A stretch of DNA of 64,000 nucleotides from Persicimonas caeni (GTDB lineage: Bacteria > Myxococcota_A > Bradymonadia > Bradymonadales > Bradymonadaceae): positions 5,607,074-5,671,073 of the forward strand of contig NZ_CP041186.1 of the NCBI RefSeq assembly GCF_006517175.1. Direction: 5' to 3'. Both the position numbers and the translations under genes were made by a program. Of the stretch, positions 49,849-59,340 are shown in pieces; position 1 is the stretch's first letter, and every line of letters starts with the position of its first letter. The notes under the pieces were generated by a model. It saw nothing but the letters and a program-made list of their open reading frames with translations. It did no database searches and was not told the origin of the DNA.

Positions 49849-51064
49849 CGCCGCCCGCCGACATCGAACGCCGCCGTAACACGATGACTGACACCATCTG
49901 GGCGGAGCTAGGTGTGCCAGCTTTAGTTGAAGGCCTTGCTGGTTAGTGACGCCCGCTATAATCGGCACCCTGAACGACGGGCGCAAACTACGATTTTGGG
50001 GCGGACGAGCTGTGGCTGCCGAGCGAGACGGTCGTATGGACGACGAGCCACGTGGCTTATCGGCAATTTGCACCGCCACGCAGATGCGCCGCGAATCGTC
50101 CGCCCCTGCAACCAGCGCTGGAAGCGCTGCCTCCAGTGACGGCGACCTTGTGCGACAGCCTCGGGATACCGCGCCCGCGACCGCGACCGCGCCCCGTCGT
50201 TTGAGTTGCAGGGCGTTCGGGGGACGGCGCGAAACGAGCGGGCAGAGCGACCGCATTGCAGGTGAAAGACGGGTCGCGGTCGCGGGCAGGGGCGCGGTCG
50301 CGGAGTGTCGCCCGAAACACGATGACTGACACCATTCGGGCGCAATGATCGAGTTGCGGGTATCCTTCGCAGCTCGATGAGGCAGCCGCCCCACCGGGCT
50401 TGTCCCAGTGGACGGAAAGCCTGAAAGCTAGATGCGTGCCGCCTCCCCCCATGGCGCGCGCAGCGCGCCGAGTCGACGGCCGATCACGGACACGGTCACG
50501 GTCACGGTCAAGGTCTCGGCGACGTCCCCTGACTTGCGTAGTGTGCTTCGGCGCGCGAATTGTTCGGTGCGTGGGCATCTTGCCCTCGTCAGCGAGAGTT
50601 GGAAGCGCTCGCACCGAAAGCGCGCGAATTGTTCGGTGCGTGGGCATCTTGCCCTCGTTGCAAGGCCGTACGCTCCTGCAACCAGCGCTGGAAGCGCTGC
50701 CTCCAATGACGGCGACCTCGTGCGACAGCCTCGAGAAGACCGCGGTCGCGGGCAGGGGCGCGGTCGCGGCAGGGCGGCAGTATGGACGACGAGCCACGTG
50801 GCTTATATGCGCATTGCACCGCCACGCAGGTGTGCCGCGAATCGTCCGCCCCGAAATGGCCGTACCGCGAGGGCGTGTAGCTGAGGGTGACGGGCGAGTG
50901 GTAATGATAGCTCGTTATTGACAGTTTCGAGGGTGAGTTGTATCCGTGTGGCGATAATGGGATCTCAATAGCGCTCGGGTGACTGCGTCCAGGTGGGCTG
51001 AGTTGTCTCACCGAGCCGTTGTCCATTCAGATCCGCCAGCTTACCGACCTCACGGAGATACGAG
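49849..51064. other. Repeat-rich intergenic region
   Basis: No convincing gene. Two similar blocks share CTGCAACCAGCGCTGGAAGC, a GACGGCGACCT stretch and GACGACGAGCCACGTGGCTT (about 50030-50160 and 50670-50850). R2 copies lie at 50562-50618 and, partial, 50632-50660. GC-rich simple repeats (CGCGACCGCGACC, GACACGGTCACGGTCACGG) lie between. The last 160 bp hold the zinc-regulated promoter of the GTPase gene. Confidence 0.8.
50901..50946 (+). promoter_or_regulatory. Proposed Zur box 1 with promoter
   Basis: Palindrome GTAATGATAGCTCGTTAT (50901-50918) overlaps TTGACA (50918-50923) by one base; 17 bp on is TATCCG (50941-50946) as a weak -10. GATAAT at 50953 is an alternative -10. Matches boxes at 54670 and 58953 (consensus RTAAYG-N6-CRTTAT). 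A bound repressor would block the -35. Confidence 0.75.
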
Positions 51065-52297
<1,233 letters not shown>

Positions 52298-53385: not shown

Positions 53386-54114
53386 CTAAATTAAGCATTC
53401 TTCGAGGCTGGATACGAGCACGTCTTCGTCGAGGTGGCGCCCGATGAAGACCATCTGGCTGCGCCGCGGCGCGTCGCCCCACGGCTGGTCGGAGCGAGCT
53501 TCGAAGAGCTTGTGGACGCCTTGAAAGACCATTCGCGTGTCCATTCCGTCGACGGCAACGATGCCCTTCATCCGAAAGATGTGGGCGCCGTTTAGCATCA
53601 GGAAGTAGCGGAGCCATCGCTGCAGCTTCTCCCCATGGAAGGCGCGGTCCCATTCAAAGGCAACCGAACTTACTTGGTCGTCGTGCTCGTGAGCGGACCG
53701 GTAGTGGTGCTGGTTGCTCCACTCGACGAGCTGGTCGTCCGGATCGCACAACACCATCGCAAAGTCCCGGGGGGCGCGCTCGGCGAAGATGGCGAGCCGG
53801 CTCGGTTGGGCGATTTCGATGTGGAAGTCCTGAGAATTGCGCCCGAGTCGGAGGCTCCAGTGGGTGTCTCCGGGGGCGAGATGGTGAGCGTGACCCACCG
53901 GCTGCTCTGGTTGGCTGTAGAGGCGCGTGGCCTTCTCTTGTCCTTCTTCGATGATCAACGCGTCATCGATGCCGACCTCGCCGAATTCGTTCTCGATGAT
54001 CGCGATGCGTTTGCCGTGTTCGACGCTCAGAATGCGATTGACGAGAGTCGTCTTCCCGGCGCCCAAGAATCCGGTCACGATGGTCACGGGAGTCTTGTCG
54101 AAGGACTTACTCAT
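53386..54114 (-). CDS. CobW-family protein with deleted G-domain core
   Basis: 242 residues. N-terminus is normal Cob[16 protein letters not shown] (15-29), IIENEFGEVGIDDALI. After about residue 58 the sequence jumps to the segment that in long CobW proteins precedes the C-terminal domain (LAPGDTHWSLRLG, FHIEIAQPSRLAIF), then HEHDDQVSSV and a full CobW_C (RMKGIVAVDG, VFQGVHKLF, VFIGRHLDED). The CxCC, ESTG and NKxD motifs are all missing. In-frame internal deletion, so GTPase activity is unlikely. The upstream gene is MerC-like, 37 nt away. Confidence 0.85.
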   Translation of the reverse strand: MSKSFDKTPVTIVTGFLGAGKTTLVNRILSVEHGKRIAIIENEFGEVGIDDALIIEEGQEKATRLYSQPEQPVGHAHHLAPGDTHWSLRLGRNSQDFHIEIAQPSRLAIFAERAPRDFAMVLCDPDDQLVEWSNQHHYRSAHEHDDQVSSVAFEWDRAFHGEKLQRWLRYFLMLNGAHIFRMKGIVAVDGMDTRMVFQGVHKLFEARSDQPWGDAPRRSQMVFIGRHLDEDVLVSSLEECLI

Positions 54115-54151: not shown

Positions 54152-54568
54152 TCACTGGCGGTGACAGTCTTGGCCGCATTGGTGGCATGCCCACAGGTTT
54201 CGCACGTGAGCGGAGGTTAGGAGCACGCCGCCTGCGACAGTCAGGATGGTCTCCCAGTGATGGCCCCCCAGCGCGTGGGCCAGCGGATGCGCGGCGCACA
54301 GGCCGAGCAGGCCGGCTGCACCGGCCACAAGCACAAAGAGTTCTTTGTGGCTGCGATAGCCTTTCAGCAGAGCGAAGAGCGCAATTGGCACCACGGTGGC
54401 GAGCATGCCCCAATGCACGGCGGGGTGGAGCAATGCGTCACCGATGACCACGGGGAGCAGGGATACGGCGATCGGCAGCACCAGACAGTGTGCGACGCAC
54501 ATGCCGGAGAGCACGATACCCGCCGAGTCGAAAGCTTTCGAAGGAACCAGTTGCGTCGGGTTGGTCAT
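54152..54568 (-). CDS. MerC-domain membrane protein
   Basis: 138 residues from ATG 54568. Four membrane helices; the first carries SGMCVAHCLVLPIAVSLLPVV, the MerC-type Cys-containing motif. C-terminal tail HVRNLWACHQCGQDCHRQ is Cys/His-rich. MerC relatives are seen in zinc regulons of proteobacteria. First gene of the short operon under Zur box 2. Metal specificity is inferred from context. Confidence 0.85.
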   Translation of the reverse strand: MTNPTQLVPSKAFDSAGIVLSGMCVAHCLVLPIAVSLLPVVIGDALLHPAVHWGMLATVVPIALFALLKGYRSHKELFVLVAGAAGLLGLCAAHPLAHALGGHHWETILTVAGGVLLTSAHVRNLWACHQCGQDCHRQ

Positions 54569-54641
54569 CGGTTTTTGGGTGTTCGGGGTGAGTAAACCGA
54601 CTTCGAACAAGTCAGTGGCGATAGCTGGTTATCGATAGCGG

Positions 54642-54687
54642 ATTGTGGAGGGAAGGTGGTCGGTTGTCAATAATGCAAGTGCGTTAT
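54642..54687 (-). promoter_or_regulatory. Proposed Zur box 2 with promoter
   Basis: Palindrome ATAACGCACTTGCATTAT on the minus strand (54687-54670) overlaps TTGACA (54670-54665) by one base, then 17 bp, then CACAAT (54647-54642) as -10. The geometry is identical to box 1. Drives the MerC-CobW-lipoprotein unit. Confidence 0.78.
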
Positions 54688-54766: not shown

Positions 54767-55138
54767 TTAGGCCGCTTTGCAGGTGGGGCAGACGCCGTAC
54801 ATCAGGATTTCGTGGCGCGTAACTTCATAGTCCTCGGGGACGATGGACTTGATGTTGGGGCAGCCGGGGATGTCGAAGACGAGGCCGCACGCGTCGCATT
54901 GGAAGTGGTGGTGGTGCTCGAGATCGACCGACTCGTAGCGGCTCGGCTCGCCGGGCAGGTCCACCGGGGTCAGCACGCCCTCGTCAACGAAGGCTTTCAA
55001 GTTGCGATACACGGTGGCGATCCCCAAACCCGGAACGTGTTCTTGGGCCAGGTCGAGCACCTCTTGGGCGGTCAGCGGCCGCTTCGCTTCGTCGAAGACC
55101 TTCTTCATCGCCTCGCGTTGTTCGGTTCGCCGTTCCAT
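54767..55138 (-). CDS. zur: Fur-family regulator, probable Zur
   Basis: 123 residues. Winged helix followed by HHHHF (75-79) regulatory metal motif and two CxxC pairs (81/84 and 117/120) for the structural zinc. Fur, Zur and PerR share this layout; assignment to Zur rests on its position among zinc-uptake genes and on the shared palindromes nearby. Last gene of the operon starting at znuA; about 80 nt after the ZIP gene. Confidence 0.88.
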   Translation of the reverse strand: MERRTEQREAMKKVFDEAKRPLTAQEVLDLAQEHVPGLGIATVYRNLKAFVDEGVLTPVDLPGEPSRYESVDLEHHHHFQCDACGLVFDIPGCPNIKSIVPEDYEVTRHEILMYGVCPTCKAA

Positions 55139-55220: not shown

Positions 55221-55961
55221 TCAGTGTGCGGCGCGTACCAGGTACAACAGGCCGGCGCCAAGGACGAAGGCGGCGAAGCGCTGTAGTGTCTCGGTGAGTT
55301 TGTCGGCACGCTTGACCTCGGGAAGTAGATCGGCGCCGGCAATATACAGAAAGTTGCCACAGCCGGCCGCAATCAAGAAGTGGGTGTCGACACTGCCTCC
55401 GAGCCACCAGGCGATGGCGCCACCCAGGGGAAATGTCAGCGCTGAGACGAAGTTGTAGACCAGTGCGCGCCGCCGCGAGAATCCGGAGTGGACGATGGCG
55501 CCGAAGTCGCCGATCTCTTGAGGAATCTCGTGGAGGGCGGCGGCCGTCCAGGCCGCAATGCCTGCGCTGATGTCGACCAGGAAGATGGCGCCCACGGCCA
55601 ATCCACCCAGGAAGTTGTGAATTCCGTCGGCGACCAGAAGCAATGGCCCCAGCGGCCGAGTGTGTTCCGAAGGAGGCTTGTGGCAGTGGTGCCACTCGAG
55701 CAGCTGGTCGAGTGCAAAGAAGCTGGCAAAGCCAACGATGATCCAAAGGAGCATGTCGAGCTGACCGGCCGGACCTTCGAGGGCGTGCGGGAGCATGTGG
55801 AAGAACGCACCGCCCAGTAGGGAGCCGGCAGCAAACGCCACGATGACTTTAAGCCACGCGGCGAGGAGTCGCTCGGGCAAGAGGACGAAGAGCCCACCGA
55901 TGAGCGCGATGGCCGACATCAGGAAGCCGAAGCCCAGAATCCAGATCAGTGTTGGGTCCAT
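55221..55961 (-). CDS. ZIP-family metal transporter
   Basis: 246 residues from ATG 55961 (GGAG 9 nt upstream). Eight membrane helices as in ZIP proteins. TM4 and TM5 metal motifs HNFLGG (His115) and HEIPQEIGD (His143, Glu144, Glu148) are present; TM4 has Gly instead of the more usual Asp. A variable loop EWHHCHKPPSEH binds metal. Likely zinc import. 20 nt after the fusion permease; part of the same operon. Confidence 0.93.
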   Translation of the reverse strand: MDPTLIWILGFGFLMSAIALIGGLFVLLPERLLAAWLKVIVAFAAGSLLGGAFFHMLPHALEGPAGQLDMLLWIIVGFASFFALDQLLEWHHCHKPPSEHTRPLGPLLLVADGIHNFLGGLAVGAIFLVDISAGIAAWTAAALHEIPQEIGDFGAIVHSGFSRRRALVYNFVSALTFPLGGAIAWWLGGSVDTHFLIAAGCGNFLYIAGADLLPEVKRADKLTETLQRFAAFVLGAGLLYLVRAAH

Positions 55962-55981: not shown

Positions 55982-57898
55982 TCAGCCATGCTCGTGAGCG
56001 GTATCGCAATGCCCTTCGAGTTCGTGGTGGTCGTGACCGTGGTCGTGGTCGTGGTCGTGGCCGTGGCCGTGGCTGTGGCCGTGGTCGTGGCCGTGGTCGT
56101 GGCCGTGGCAATGGTCGTGATGGTGCTGGTCGTGACCGTGGTCGTGATGGTGGTGAGAGCCAAATTGCAGCACCGTTTGCAGCCAGTCTCTGGGGCCACG
56201 ACGCAGCAGCGAGACCCCAAAAAGTACAATCGCGACACCCAAGCCGGCCCAGTTCCACCACGCGTCGTGCGCCAGTTCACCCGCGTGTGTCGAGGGAGTC
56301 GGTAGGCTCGCCGGGAGCGCCAGGTTGATTGCATAGCCGGCTCCGATGGCCAGTGCGATGACACCCGCGCCGAAGATAGCGGCGATGCGTTTGTCGTGAA
56401 GCTTCGAGAGAACACCGAGGGTGGTCACGTTGGTTGCTGGACTTGAGAGTAGGAAGGCGATGGCCGCGCCGGGAGACGCTCCTGCAAAGATCAGTGCTGC
56501 TGCCAGCGGCGTGGCTCCCGAGGCGCACACGTACATTGGGAGTCCGAGCGCGGCGAAGACGACCACGTCCAGGCCCGCAGGCAATTGTGCGAGCCAGTCG
56601 GGGGTGGCCGTGGCGGTCACGGCGGCCGCGATCACCAGCCCCAACACAATCCAGGGGGCGGTGTCGTCGACCACCTCTCGCAGGCCGAAGTGCAGGGCGC
56701 GCTTGGTCTTTTCTGCGCGAGTGCGCTCGGGCTCGTCGCTGCTCTCGAGGTCGTCAGGCCCCTCATGCTGGGCAGGTGTGATGCCGCCGATGACGGCGCC
56801 GACGAGCAGGGCGACGACCATGGCGGCGATTAGTCTGGCAATCGTCAGTTCTGCGCCCAGGAGGGGAAACGACAGCATCACCGCGCCGATCTCCAACTCC
56901 GGGGTAGCTACCAGGAAGGCCATCGCCGCGGGCACGGGCACTCCCCGACGCACCAGACTCTGGTACAACGGCACAATCCCACACGAGCAGATCGGGATGG
57001 GCAGCCCGAAGAGCATGCCGCGTGCAGATTGGCCCCACCGAGAACCGCGGCGAGTCCACGCGAGCGACGCTTGGGGCAAGAAGCCGGCAGCCAAGCCCGC
57101 CGGTAGGTAGCCGATGACCAAGGCCGGTGCACTCTGTAAGGCGAGCTCCGCCAGGCTGTGTCCAACTGCACGCATGAACTCGTGATGGGCGTGCCCGGCG
57201 TGGTCATGGATTTGGCCGAGGCCGAGGACCAGCCCTGCTCCCGCCACTCCACCGAGGAGCTCGGGAAATTTCCACGTCGTGACGGAGCCCTCCGAGCCAC
57301 CGTCGTGGTGAACGAGAACGTGGAGCAGGCTTCCGGCCACGAACGCCTGGAACAGCGCGAACCAGACGCCCTGGGTCATTTCGACGGGGCCGTCGGCAAG
57401 CCCGAAACCTGCCAGAGTGCCAACGGCGACAAGTCCGAGCACCGCTACCGCGTTTCGGCTGCCGAACTGAGGGCGCACCAGCGCCCAGACGGTCATCCCC
57501 ACCGGCAGTCGATGCAATGCGACCGCAAGCGCGAGCTCACCGCCGTGCTTGTCGTGTGCTCCATGGGCCAGCACCATGCCGTCGAGCGCCGTGTGGACGA
57601 TCAGCGCCACGAGGCCGAGCGCCAGCGCGACCTGGTGGGTCCGCTTGGACGCCACACCGGCGAGACGCTCGATCGCGACCGGCCCGAAGACGCCGGCGAG
57701 CGCGACGACGAGCGCCAGGCCGCCGGCGACGGCGACGAGTTCGGGGAGCACCACGCCCAGGACGATCGCGCCCACCGAAATCAGGATGAAACTGTCCAGT
57801 CCGGCTCGCACACCACGGTGGCCGCTGGAGAACTGGTAGGCGATGGGGCCGACGACGAGCATCGCTAGGCTCGACGCTAAAAAGAGAAGCTCGTTCAT
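55982..57898 (-). CDS. ZIP-like/YraQ-permease fusion with His-rich tail
   Basis: 638 residues. The N-terminal 1-200 is ZIP-like: HTALDGMVLAHG (His102, Asp106) and ALHRLPVGMTVW (His129). A His-containing loop (HDHAGHAHHE, 231-240) leads into a permease half of the YraQ/ArsP type (COG0701), with the hallmark CSCGIVP (Cys304, Cys306) and a second pair of helices with PATNVTTLG. The C-terminal ~50 residues are mostly His, Asp and Gly. SO_0444-type permeases are the closest known relatives for the second half. Located 13 nt after znuA. Confidence 0.9.
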   Translation of the reverse strand: MNELLFLASSLAMLVVGPIAYQFSSGHRGVRAGLDSFILISVGAIVLGVVLPELVAVAGGLALVVALAGVFGPVAIERLAGVASKRTHQVALALGLVALIVHTALDGMVLAHGAHDKHGGELALAVALHRLPVGMTVWALVRPQFGSRNAVAVLGLVAVGTLAGFGLADGPVEMTQGVWFALFQAFVAGSLLHVLVHHDGGSEGSVTTWKFPELLGGVAGAGLVLGLGQIHDHAGHAHHEFMRAVGHSLAELALQSAPALVIGYLPAGLAAGFLPQASLAWTRRGSRWGQSARGMLFGLPIPICSCGIVPLYQSLVRRGVPVPAAMAFLVATPELEIGAVMLSFPLLGAELTIARLIAAMVVALLVGAVIGGITPAQHEGPDDLESSDEPERTRAEKTKRALHFGLREVVDDTAPWIVLGLVIAAAVTATATPDWLAQLPAGLDVVVFAALGLPMYVCASGATPLAAALIFAGASPGAAIAFLLSSPATNVTTLGVLSKLHDKRIAAIFGAGVIALAIGAGYAINLALPASLPTPSTHAGELAHDAWWNWAGLGVAIVLFGVSLLRRGPRDWLQTVLQFGSHHHHDHGHDQHHHDHCHGHDHGHDHGHSHGHGHDHDHDHGHDHHELEGHCDTAHEHG

Positions 57899-57911: not shown

Positions 57912-58829
57912 CTATTTGTCGAGGGCCTTGTAGATGGCGCTTGCGAGCGCGTTGATGCGGTCGATGTAGGACTTGCCCAGTCGTGTTTGTCCCTGCGAGC
58001 TCACAACCTTCGCGCCGGTCTTGTCGGCGATTCGCTCGACGGTGGTCGCCGGGTAGTACTCCATCTTGAGGATGACCGGGATTTCGTCGCGCTCGATCGT
58101 CTTGATGACCTCGACGACGTGACGCGGGTTTGGCTCGACGCCAGGTTTGGGCTCGACGGTGGCTACGCGCTCGAGGTCGAGCCAGTCGAGCACATAGATC
58201 CAGGCCTCGTGGTAGACCACTACTTCTCGGCGTTCGGCAGGCAACTCGGCAAACTTCTCTTGCCAGTGTTTGTAGGTCTGGAGGCATTCTCTGGCGAATT
58301 TGCGCGCCCGCTTTTGGTACGCCGCCTTATTCGCGGGGTCGATCTGGCCCAGGCGCTTACCCAACGCGATGGCGACTCGCGCCATCTGGCGTGGCTCGTA
58401 GGTGTAGTGGGGGTTGCCCTCGGGATGGACGTCGCCCATCGAGCGGTCGATCTGTTGCTTGGGGACTTCCTTTCGCTCGATGAACGTCGAGGCGTCGAAG
58501 TGGCCGGGTTCGCCGCGCTGGATATCAGGATTGCGCGAGTTCTTGACGAGCATGGGGAGCCAGCCGATCTCGAGAGACATGCCGTTGAGCACCACTAAGT
58601 CGGCCTGAGCGACCTCGCGAACGAAGCTCGGCTTGGCGTCGACGTAGTGAGGGTCTTCCTGAGGCCGGGCGAGCAGTTTGACGTCCACATCCTCTCCGCC
58701 GACCTCCTCGGCGGCCGCGGCGAGGTCTCCGAGCGTGGCGACAACTTTGACTTTTGCTGCGGCCAGGTCGGGAATCAGTATGACCAGCAGGAGGGCGACC
58801 GTGGGCAGAATCATCTTGCGTGCGTTCAT
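57912..58829 (-). CDS. znuA: ZnuA-like metal-binding protein
   Basis: 305 residues. Signal peptide (DLAAAK) and a cluster A-I fold: metal ligands His61 (DPHYVD), His141 (NPHYTY), His207 (YHEAW) and Glu257 (EYYP). The His-rich loop of classical ZnuA is absent. ATG 58829 chosen for the signal peptide; earlier in-frame ATGs at 58895 and 58892, with GAGG upstream, are possible. No ZnuB/ZnuC genes accompany it. First gene of the four-gene operon. Confidence 0.92.
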   Translation of the reverse strand: MNARKMILPTVALLLVILIPDLAAAKVKVVATLGDLAAAAEEVGGEDVDVKLLARPQEDPHYVDAKPSFVREVAQADLVVLNGMSLEIGWLPMLVKNSRNPDIQRGEPGHFDASTFIERKEVPKQQIDRSMGDVHPEGNPHYTYEPRQMARVAIALGKRLGQIDPANKAAYQKRARKFARECLQTYKHWQEKFAELPAERREVVVYHEAWIYVLDWLDLERVATVEPKPGVEPNPRHVVEVIKTIERDEIPVILKMEYYPATTVERIADKTGAKVVSSQGQTRLGKSYIDRINALASAIYKALDK

Positions 58830-58952
58830 AGCGTTGCACCCAGTGTGATTGGGCAGTAGGGCGGTAAGCGAGACAAGGATACGCTCGACCATCATTGACC
58901 TCGAACTGCATGTGATGCGTCCGCCGGCGACTCAGAAGCGGATTACTTGGTT

Positions 58953-58970
58953 ATAACGGGAGTGCATTAT
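58953..58970 (-). promoter_or_regulatory. Proposed Zur box 3
   Basis: Minus-strand ATAATGCACTCCCGTTAT, same half-sites as boxes 1 and 2, about 124 bp before znuA. The -35 overlap seen in boxes 1 and 2 is not visible here. Confidence 0.7.
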
Positions 58971-59150: not shown

Positions 59151-59156
59151 GCGTAG

Positions 59157-59228
59157 TGGGCGTGCCTGGATTTGAACCAGGGACTTCTTCCGTGTCGGGG
59201 AAGCACTCTTCCACTGAGTTACACGCCC
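59157..59228 (-). tRNA. tRNA-Val(GAC), copy 1
   Basis: 72 nt cloverleaf: acceptor GGGCGTG/CACGCCC, D-stem ACTC/GAGT, anticodon arm CTTCC-CCGACAC-GGAAG, T-arm CCTGG-TTCAAAT-CCAGG. Anticodon GAC. Position 33 is C instead of the near-universal U. CCA not encoded. Confidence 0.95.
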
Positions 59229-59268
59229 TCGTGGGCGCGGCGTTGGAGCCGCGTCCCTATGTTTGCAG

Positions 59269-59340
59269 TGGGCGTGCCTGGATTTGAACCAGGGACTTCT
59301 TCCGTGTCGGGGAAGCACTCTTCCACTGAGTTACACGCCC
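59269..59340 (-). tRNA. tRNA-Val(GAC), copy 2
   Basis: Identical to copy 1 over all 72 nt, also with C33; 40 bp separates the two. A tandem duplicate sharing the terminator at 59115. Confidence 0.95.

Follow-up and report, generated by a model that had tools for sequence, protein, structure and literature searches.

The window analyzed here, a 64,000-nucleotide stretch of the Persicimonas caeni genome, carries a run of zinc-related genes on its minus strand. The second gene of the run (57898..55982) is one open frame of 638 residues with zero internal stops; the plus-strand translation of the same interval is stop-ridden and meaningless. The encoded protein consists of a ZIP-fold domain (residues 1-230, 57209..57898), a permease domain of the ArsP_1/SO_0444 type (residues 237-530, 56309..57190), a terminal helix, and a His-rich C-terminal tail (residues 582-638, 55985..56155). 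The gene lies 13 nt behind the stop codon of a gene for a ZnuA-type solute-binding protein and is followed after 20 nt by a ZIP gene, after a further 82 nt by a gene for a FUR-family regulator, and after another 156 nt by a MerC-CobW pair. A preliminary description had placed the fusion 13 nt after a ZnuA-like gene and ahead of a ZIP gene, which is the order that we found. A split gene, an assembly artefact, or a chance juxtaposition is ruled out by the single frame together with the presence of the same fusion in many genomes (25 of 96 relatives, and other phyla), and in close relatives the gene is fused rather than split.

The permease domain is the part of the protein with the strongest score. 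Pfam ArsP_1 matches residues 294-525 (6.4e-42), and the best NCBIfam model is that of the SO_0444 family (NF033936; 7.4e-62), which covers the permease domain end to end at 209.5-210 bits, where the cut-off is 300. The model is also matched by all 32 sequences aligned across phyla (best E 1.5e-68), and AlphaFold2 predicts helices in the domain. The fusion shares with the SO_0444 family (NF033936; COG0701/PF03773, with ArsP and SaoE) the whole permease length and the CSCG, YVCASGATP, and PATN motifs; the first of these (C304-S-C306-G) is encoded at 56978..56989 on the minus strand, and neither C304 nor C306 varies among 26 aligned fusions. Thus, the assignment to CSCG permeases of the COG0701/SO_0444 type stands, while the original YraQ-type label is refined, SO_0444 being the closest model. 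The fusion nevertheless differs from that family in its score below the cut-off, in its N-terminal ZIP domain, and in its setting, since SO_0444 is encoded with a ZntR-type operon activator (SO_0443) whereas the fusion has a FUR/ZnuA context.

The N-terminal domain is divergent. In the full-length protein, the Pfam Zip model matches residues 88-194 (4.5e-7) with 29.9 bits against a gathering score of 35.1, and the domain by itself reaches 33.1 bits (4.7e-8), which is still below that score; 14 of 22 relatives match the model (E up to 0.1), the best at 1.5e-13. An AlphaFold2 model of residues 1-245, built from 52 sequences, has eight long helices (pLDDT 88, pTM 0.82). When this model was compared with the PDB in Foldseek, the ten best matches were all entries for BbZIP (E 5.8e-4 to 0.018, probabilities 0.96-1.00), and the first match to anything else was an unrelated protein at E 0.35. 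The exclusive return of BbZIP structures together with the eight helices indicates that the domain is a complete ZIP fold. Its initial characterization as ZIP-like was therefore right and that as a ZIP half was not, and fold comparison offers no unrelated family as a home for it. TM-scores against BbZIP are modest (0.45-0.50), and a sequence-only search of PDB chains with the domain profile gave no ZIP match and two spurious GPCR matches, so that the domain is placed among the ZIPs by fold comparison only. A 590-residue model of the fusion (pLDDT 86.5, pTM 0.85) matched the PDB through its ZIP part alone, with no solved structure resembling the permease half.

The ZIP domain shares with known ZIPs (BbZIP, ZupT; PF02535) the eight-helix fold, the H-x3-D-G motif in TM4, the H-x-x-P motif in TM5, a predicted N-out orientation, and a His-rich stretch on the cytoplasmic side, but it falls below the curated Pfam cut-off and is fused to a second transporter domain. 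The N-out prediction for the fusion comes from the positive-inside pattern. The last 76 residues contain 28 His, which bears out the description of the C-terminus as His-rich, and the tail, coming after RRGPRDW, is predicted to be cytoplasmic. We infer from this charge pattern that the N-terminus lies outside and the RRGPRDW-His tail inside. In known ZIPs the His-rich stretch is in the TM3-TM4 loop, whereas in the fusion family it is in the C-terminal tail or, in five loci (L049, L053-L056), in the loop that connects helices 7 and 8 of the ZIP domain, which by predicted topology would be on the same side as the tail.

The metal-binding residues of BbZIP provide a framework for comparing the transport sites. 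In BbZIP, M1 is formed by M99, H177, E181, Q207, and E211, and M2 by N178, E181, D208, and E240 (PMC9873690). By motif only, H102 and D106 of the TM4 motif H102-TALD106-G107 (57578..57595, minus strand) correspond to H177 and E181, and H129, R130, and V133 of the TM5 motif H129-R130-LPV133-G (57497..57514, minus strand) correspond to Q207, D208, and E211. All 113 aligned family members have the TM4 motif and H129, and 108 of them have R130. H102, D106, and H129 are thus kept in fused, decayed, and stand-alone architectures alike, and so is H193 of the TM7 motif G189-SLLH193-VLVH197 (57308..57334, minus strand) wherever that residue aligns (107 of 107); H197 is mostly kept. Within the phylum, 26 full-length fusions all have H102, D106, G107, H129, H193, C304, and C306. 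The 113-member set was preselected with H...DG, so H102 and D106 are better judged from alignments made without this filter, and there too the motif is invariant. Strict invariance of R130 was rejected, given that the genome scan pattern contained LHR and partly favoured this residue, and that HQ, HS, and HA variants appear in the set found by BLAST.

Under this motif mapping, H102, D106, and H129 fit M1, while the E211 position is mostly Val, with Glu in a minority. The M2 positions N178 and D208 are mainly Thr/Ala and Arg, respectively, so the M2 residues are not kept, and Arg130 at the position of the M2 aspartate marks the loss of the second metal site. The GS-L-H in TM7 is a further difference from known ZIPs. 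Since M1 is the transport site of BbZIP and loss of M2 lowers transport only modestly (PMC11429975), a ZIP lacking M2, such as that of the fusion, could plausibly still transport.

The ZnuA-type protein encoded by the first gene of the run (57912..58895, minus strand; Pfam ZnuA 3.7e-52) has an internal ATG at 58829 that fits its signal peptide better. Three ZnuA-type binding proteins and three ABC-3 permeases are encoded in the genome, and the permeases are all at 7.60 and 3.21 Mb beside the other two binding proteins, which leaves the ZnuA of the window with no ABC partner at hand; the run itself contains no ABC permease or ATPase and hence no ZnuABC importer. The third gene of the run (55221..55961, minus strand) encodes a ZIP transporter (Pfam Zip 4.5e-38); its TM4 reads HNFLGG, so that the usual acidic residue of H-N-x-x-D/E-G is apparently missing. 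The FUR-family gene (54767..55138, minus strand; Pfam FUR 8.6e-21), one of three in the genome, encodes a candidate Zur, and no ZntR/CueR-type regulator was seen in the run. Beyond it are genes for a MerC-family membrane protein (54152..54610, minus strand; Pfam MerC 2.3e-24) and for a COG0523/CobW protein (53386..54114, minus strand) with a complete CobW_C domain and cobW positions 1-53 of 180, most of the GTPase domain being missing; the latter gene is possibly decayed. A ZigA-type zinc metallochaperone GTPase (NF038288, 653 bits against a cut-off of 600) is encoded on the plus strand at 51065..52297. Two tandem tRNA-Val(GAC) genes (59156-59340) lie just upstream of the zinc operon.

The putative Zur box reported earlier proved to be a repeated operator candidate. 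Across the 8.05-Mb genome, the 18-bp palindrome ATAAYGN6CRTTAT has just two exact sites, each at a zinc operon in the window, and the reversed control pattern has 0. One site (ATAACGGGAGTGCATTAT, 58953..58970) is upstream of znuA-fusion-ZIP-FUR, and the other (ATAATGCAAGTGCGTTAT, 54670..54687) is upstream of the MerC-CobW pair, where MerC is the first gene behind it, and abuts a TTGACA -35-like hexamer. A weaker copy (GTAATGATAGCTCGTTAT, 50901..50918) lies upstream of the zigA-like gene, and 0.83 matches of that quality are expected by chance in the window. In same-family relatives, neither of two exact matches examined is at zinc genes, so the palindrome is without phylogenetic support outside the host genome. 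Tandem arrays of 8-bp units forming ATAACGTTATAACGTTAT on three contigs of another genome (G010; C38, C155, C409) are apparently unrelated to it.

Independent evidence comes from other members of the family, which are preceded by a different operator. The exact core TGTTATANTATAACA, which matches the Y. pestis Zur box AATGTTATANTATAACATT (PMC2706843), is found before 11 family members in Moritella, Psychromonas, and Kordiimonadaceae and is absent elsewhere in 848 kb of those same loci. A textbook Zur core is therefore present in these 11 relatives, while the window itself has a different palindrome. The exact boxes precede members without CSCG or without a permease and not CSCG fusions, for which the regulatory evidence consists of the window palindrome and the FUR neighbours.

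The ZIP-permease protein belongs to an old, widespread family and is not a peculiarity of one genome. Of 96 genomes sampled from the host's phylum, 25 have CSCG fusions, either full-length or cut by a contig end, and such fusions also occur in at least six other phyla, namely Acidobacteriota, Gemmatimonadota, Planctomycetota, Binatota, Fidelibacterota, and Pseudomonadota. These relatives come in part from a scan of GTDB genomes with a narrower N-domain alignment, which found 291 relatives, of which 80 were kept; a single-protein query of genome contigs had returned nothing. Three architectures can be distinguished. The ZIP domain is joined to a CSCG permease in Binatota, Acidobacteriota (including Acanthopleuribacter), Fidelibacterota/Neomarinimicrobiota, Gemmatimonadota, Planctomycetota, Salinisphaerales, and Myxococcota; it is joined to a permease without CSCG in Shewanella, Psychromonas, Moritella, and Motilimonas; and it stands alone, as a protein of 236-267 residues, in Woeseiaceae, Pseudomonadales, and Kordiimonadaceae. 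A search of plasmids gave SO_0444-type or other permease matches alone and no fusion.

The trees fit a single ancient fusion after which the permease decayed repeatedly. Architecture labels cluster on the N-domain tree yet need 11 changes, and the deep branches are weak. On the permease tree, one branch (SH-aLRT 99) separates the fused forms from four stand-alone COG0701 proteins, and the Psychromonas and Moritella permeases fall on the fused side. Fused permeases are 42-57% identical to that of the window, and the four stand-alone ones about 29-31%. A single origin of the fusion is likely rather than proven, as the permease tree had just four stand-alone sequences. CSCG has been lost in several clades and in a paralog in the same genome, a 388-residue protein encoded near 2.405 Mb (L060:6081-7247; G000:C1, about 2404680-2405846). 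This paralog lacks the permease core, keeps the ZIP residues and the His tail, and shares 66% identity across 271 residues with a 625-residue fusion (L052) from a genome of the same family; there is no palindrome of the window type near it.

Zinc genes also adjoin several of the relatives. The fusion is next to FUR and DksA genes in two loci (L033, L042) and next to FUR alone in a third (L056), is near a COG0523 GTPase gene in L034 and L035, and adjoins a gene for a zinc-free-type HemB in L039, L043, and L044; FUR, DksA, COG0523, and HemB are among the gene classes given for Zur regulons (PMC6103462). In a Woeseiaceae locus (L126), the stand-alone ZIP-like gene is flanked by genes for a TonB receptor and FUR and by genes for ZrgA (PF10986, 6.4e-42) and a MacB/FtsX protein, with MerC further along. 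ZrgA is a demonstrated component of zinc uptake in V. cholerae (PMC9820375). These neighbours are the same as those of Zur-controlled uptake sets (ZnuABC, ZrgABC, TonB receptors, ZupT, COG0523, DksA, and HemB paralogs), with which some members in Gammaproteobacteria and Kordiimonadaceae also share the textbook Zur box, but the membrane part of the run in the window consists of the fusion and the ZIP, with no ABC permease or ATPase. Many relatives lack an adjacent zinc gene.

What might such a protein do? Since the ZIP domain and its metal residues are always kept, the permease can be lost, and regulation resembles a zinc-starvation response, an importer with an accessory permease is the simplest reading. 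We consider it probable that the fusion imports zinc under the control of a Zur-type (FUR-family) regulator and that the divergent, M2-less ZIP domain is its transporting part. Recurrence in at least six other phyla and association with zinc-starvation gene sets likewise make zinc import by the fusion likely. At low cytoplasmic zinc, the FUR-family repressor would leave the upstream palindrome, allowing znuA, the fusion, the ZIP, and the regulator itself to be made. The ZIP domain may then move Zn2+ inward by the elevator mechanism of ZIPs, along a path through one M1-like site (His102, Asp106, and His129) with His193 near the exit, and the cytoplasmic His-rich tail could buffer or sense the incoming zinc. 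The CSCG permease, which has decayed or been lost in several lineages, would be an accessory module and might act as a second path, as a release valve, or as a partner in handing over metal. What the data show directly is the fusion itself, the ZIP fold, the conserved residues, the losses of architecture, the gene setting, and the operator candidates; the import direction, the zinc substrate, the elevator mechanism, the topology and role of the tail, and the role of the permease are all things that we infer.

Some observations count against an importer: the sub-threshold Pfam Zip match, the changed E211 (M1) and D208 (M2) positions, the modest TM-scores, the restriction of exact Zur boxes to members lacking CSCG or the permease, the lack of zinc genes at the two palindrome matches examined in same-family relatives, the many relatives without an adjoining zinc gene, and the efflux record of SO_0444. 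The last of these is the basis for supposing that the protein is a zinc/copper efflux pump, with the permease exporting and the ZIP-like domain serving as a metal-sensing or gating attachment. The permease is the top-scoring domain of the fusion, and SO_0444, the only tested member of the family of the fused permease, is required during zinc and copper stress and has been described as an efflux protein (PMC3219624); an SO_0444-type gene is moreover induced by cadmium and copper in Nitratiruptor (PMC10092412). The Zur-type boxes and the ZnuA, FUR, ZrgA, and COG0523 neighbours point instead to zinc starvation, the ZIP residues persist where CSCG has repeatedly been lost, and the neighbouring regulator is of the FUR family rather than the ZntR/CueR type, all of which makes export unlikely. 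A two-way valve, in which the ZIP imports, the permease releases excess zinc, and a shared His-rich tail senses both, would explain why the signature residues of both domains are kept in CSCG fusions and why the His-rich stretches, whether in the tail or the TM7-TM8 loop, are on the predicted cytoplasmic side. We regard it as distinctly improbable, since an importer and an exporter in one chain would be futile during zinc starvation unless gated, and lineages without CSCG retain the gene under a Zur box.

Two other alternatives concern how zinc reaches the ZIP domain and whether it moves at all. The orphan ZnuA could hand zinc to the fusion, making a single-chain ZIP importer with a thiol (CSCG) permease that is fed by a dedicated periplasmic binding protein and needs no ABC pump. 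Its gene is 13 nt upstream of the fusion, both other binding proteins of the genome have their own ABC-3 permeases, and another ZnuA gene is about 1.8 kb from a ZIP-like gene (L063), but ZnuA adjacency is rare among relatives, and the orphan could serve same-class ABC systems elsewhere in the genome. A class of binding-protein-dependent secondary importers is not known to us for zinc, and we give this arrangement little credence, about as little as the two-way valve. The Arg in place of the M2 aspartate and the Val at the E211 position in most members could, alternatively, mean that the M2-less ZIP and the His tail bind zinc without moving it, as a membrane sensor or buffer. That M1 is the authentic transport site of BbZIP and M2 loss has a modest effect (PMC11429975), and that residues of TM2, TM7, and helix packing are conserved too, make a non-transporting protein very improbable.

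Both domains are of known kinds; what appears new to us is that they are combined, how widely the combination occurs, and that it is found in zinc-starvation gene sets. A literature search, with subscription papers outside its scope, found no published description of a ZIP-permease fusion, and literature on ArsP_1 with zinc and on COG0701 with Zur likewise yielded none. The earlier statement that no such fusion has been described thus holds as far as we searched, but the protein is a member of a recurrent family rather than a singleton. The family brings together, in one chain and across many phyla, ZIP and SO_0444 families that are thought to work in opposite directions, uptake and efflux. 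It offers a route to the function of the poorly understood COG0701/SO_0444 permeases and bears on whether a ZIP without the second metal site still transports. Since the window's member falls below the curated cut-offs tested, proteins of this family, those in Shewanella, Psychromonas, and Moritella among them, may have been given generic names, and counts of zinc-uptake systems in bacteria that have the family may be too low.

A few additional gene arrangements were seen in the relatives. The HemB upstream of the fusion is confirmed by Pfam in L039, shares the zinc-free-type motif ALDPYNSDGHDG in L043, and is assigned in L044 by its similarity to the other two; it is possibly a zinc-sparing enzyme encoded in one unit with the fusion. 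A gene for a WD40-repeat protein lies just downstream of the COG0523 GTPase gene in two genera (L034:5133-6170 and L035:4903-5931), and in L034 the fusion is on the strand opposite to this pair. In another locus (L144:1948-4065), a COG0701 permease is fused to a Band-7/SPFH domain and is encoded upstream of two SPFH-like-looking genes; these are followed by a stand-alone ZIP-like gene that has an exact Zur box.
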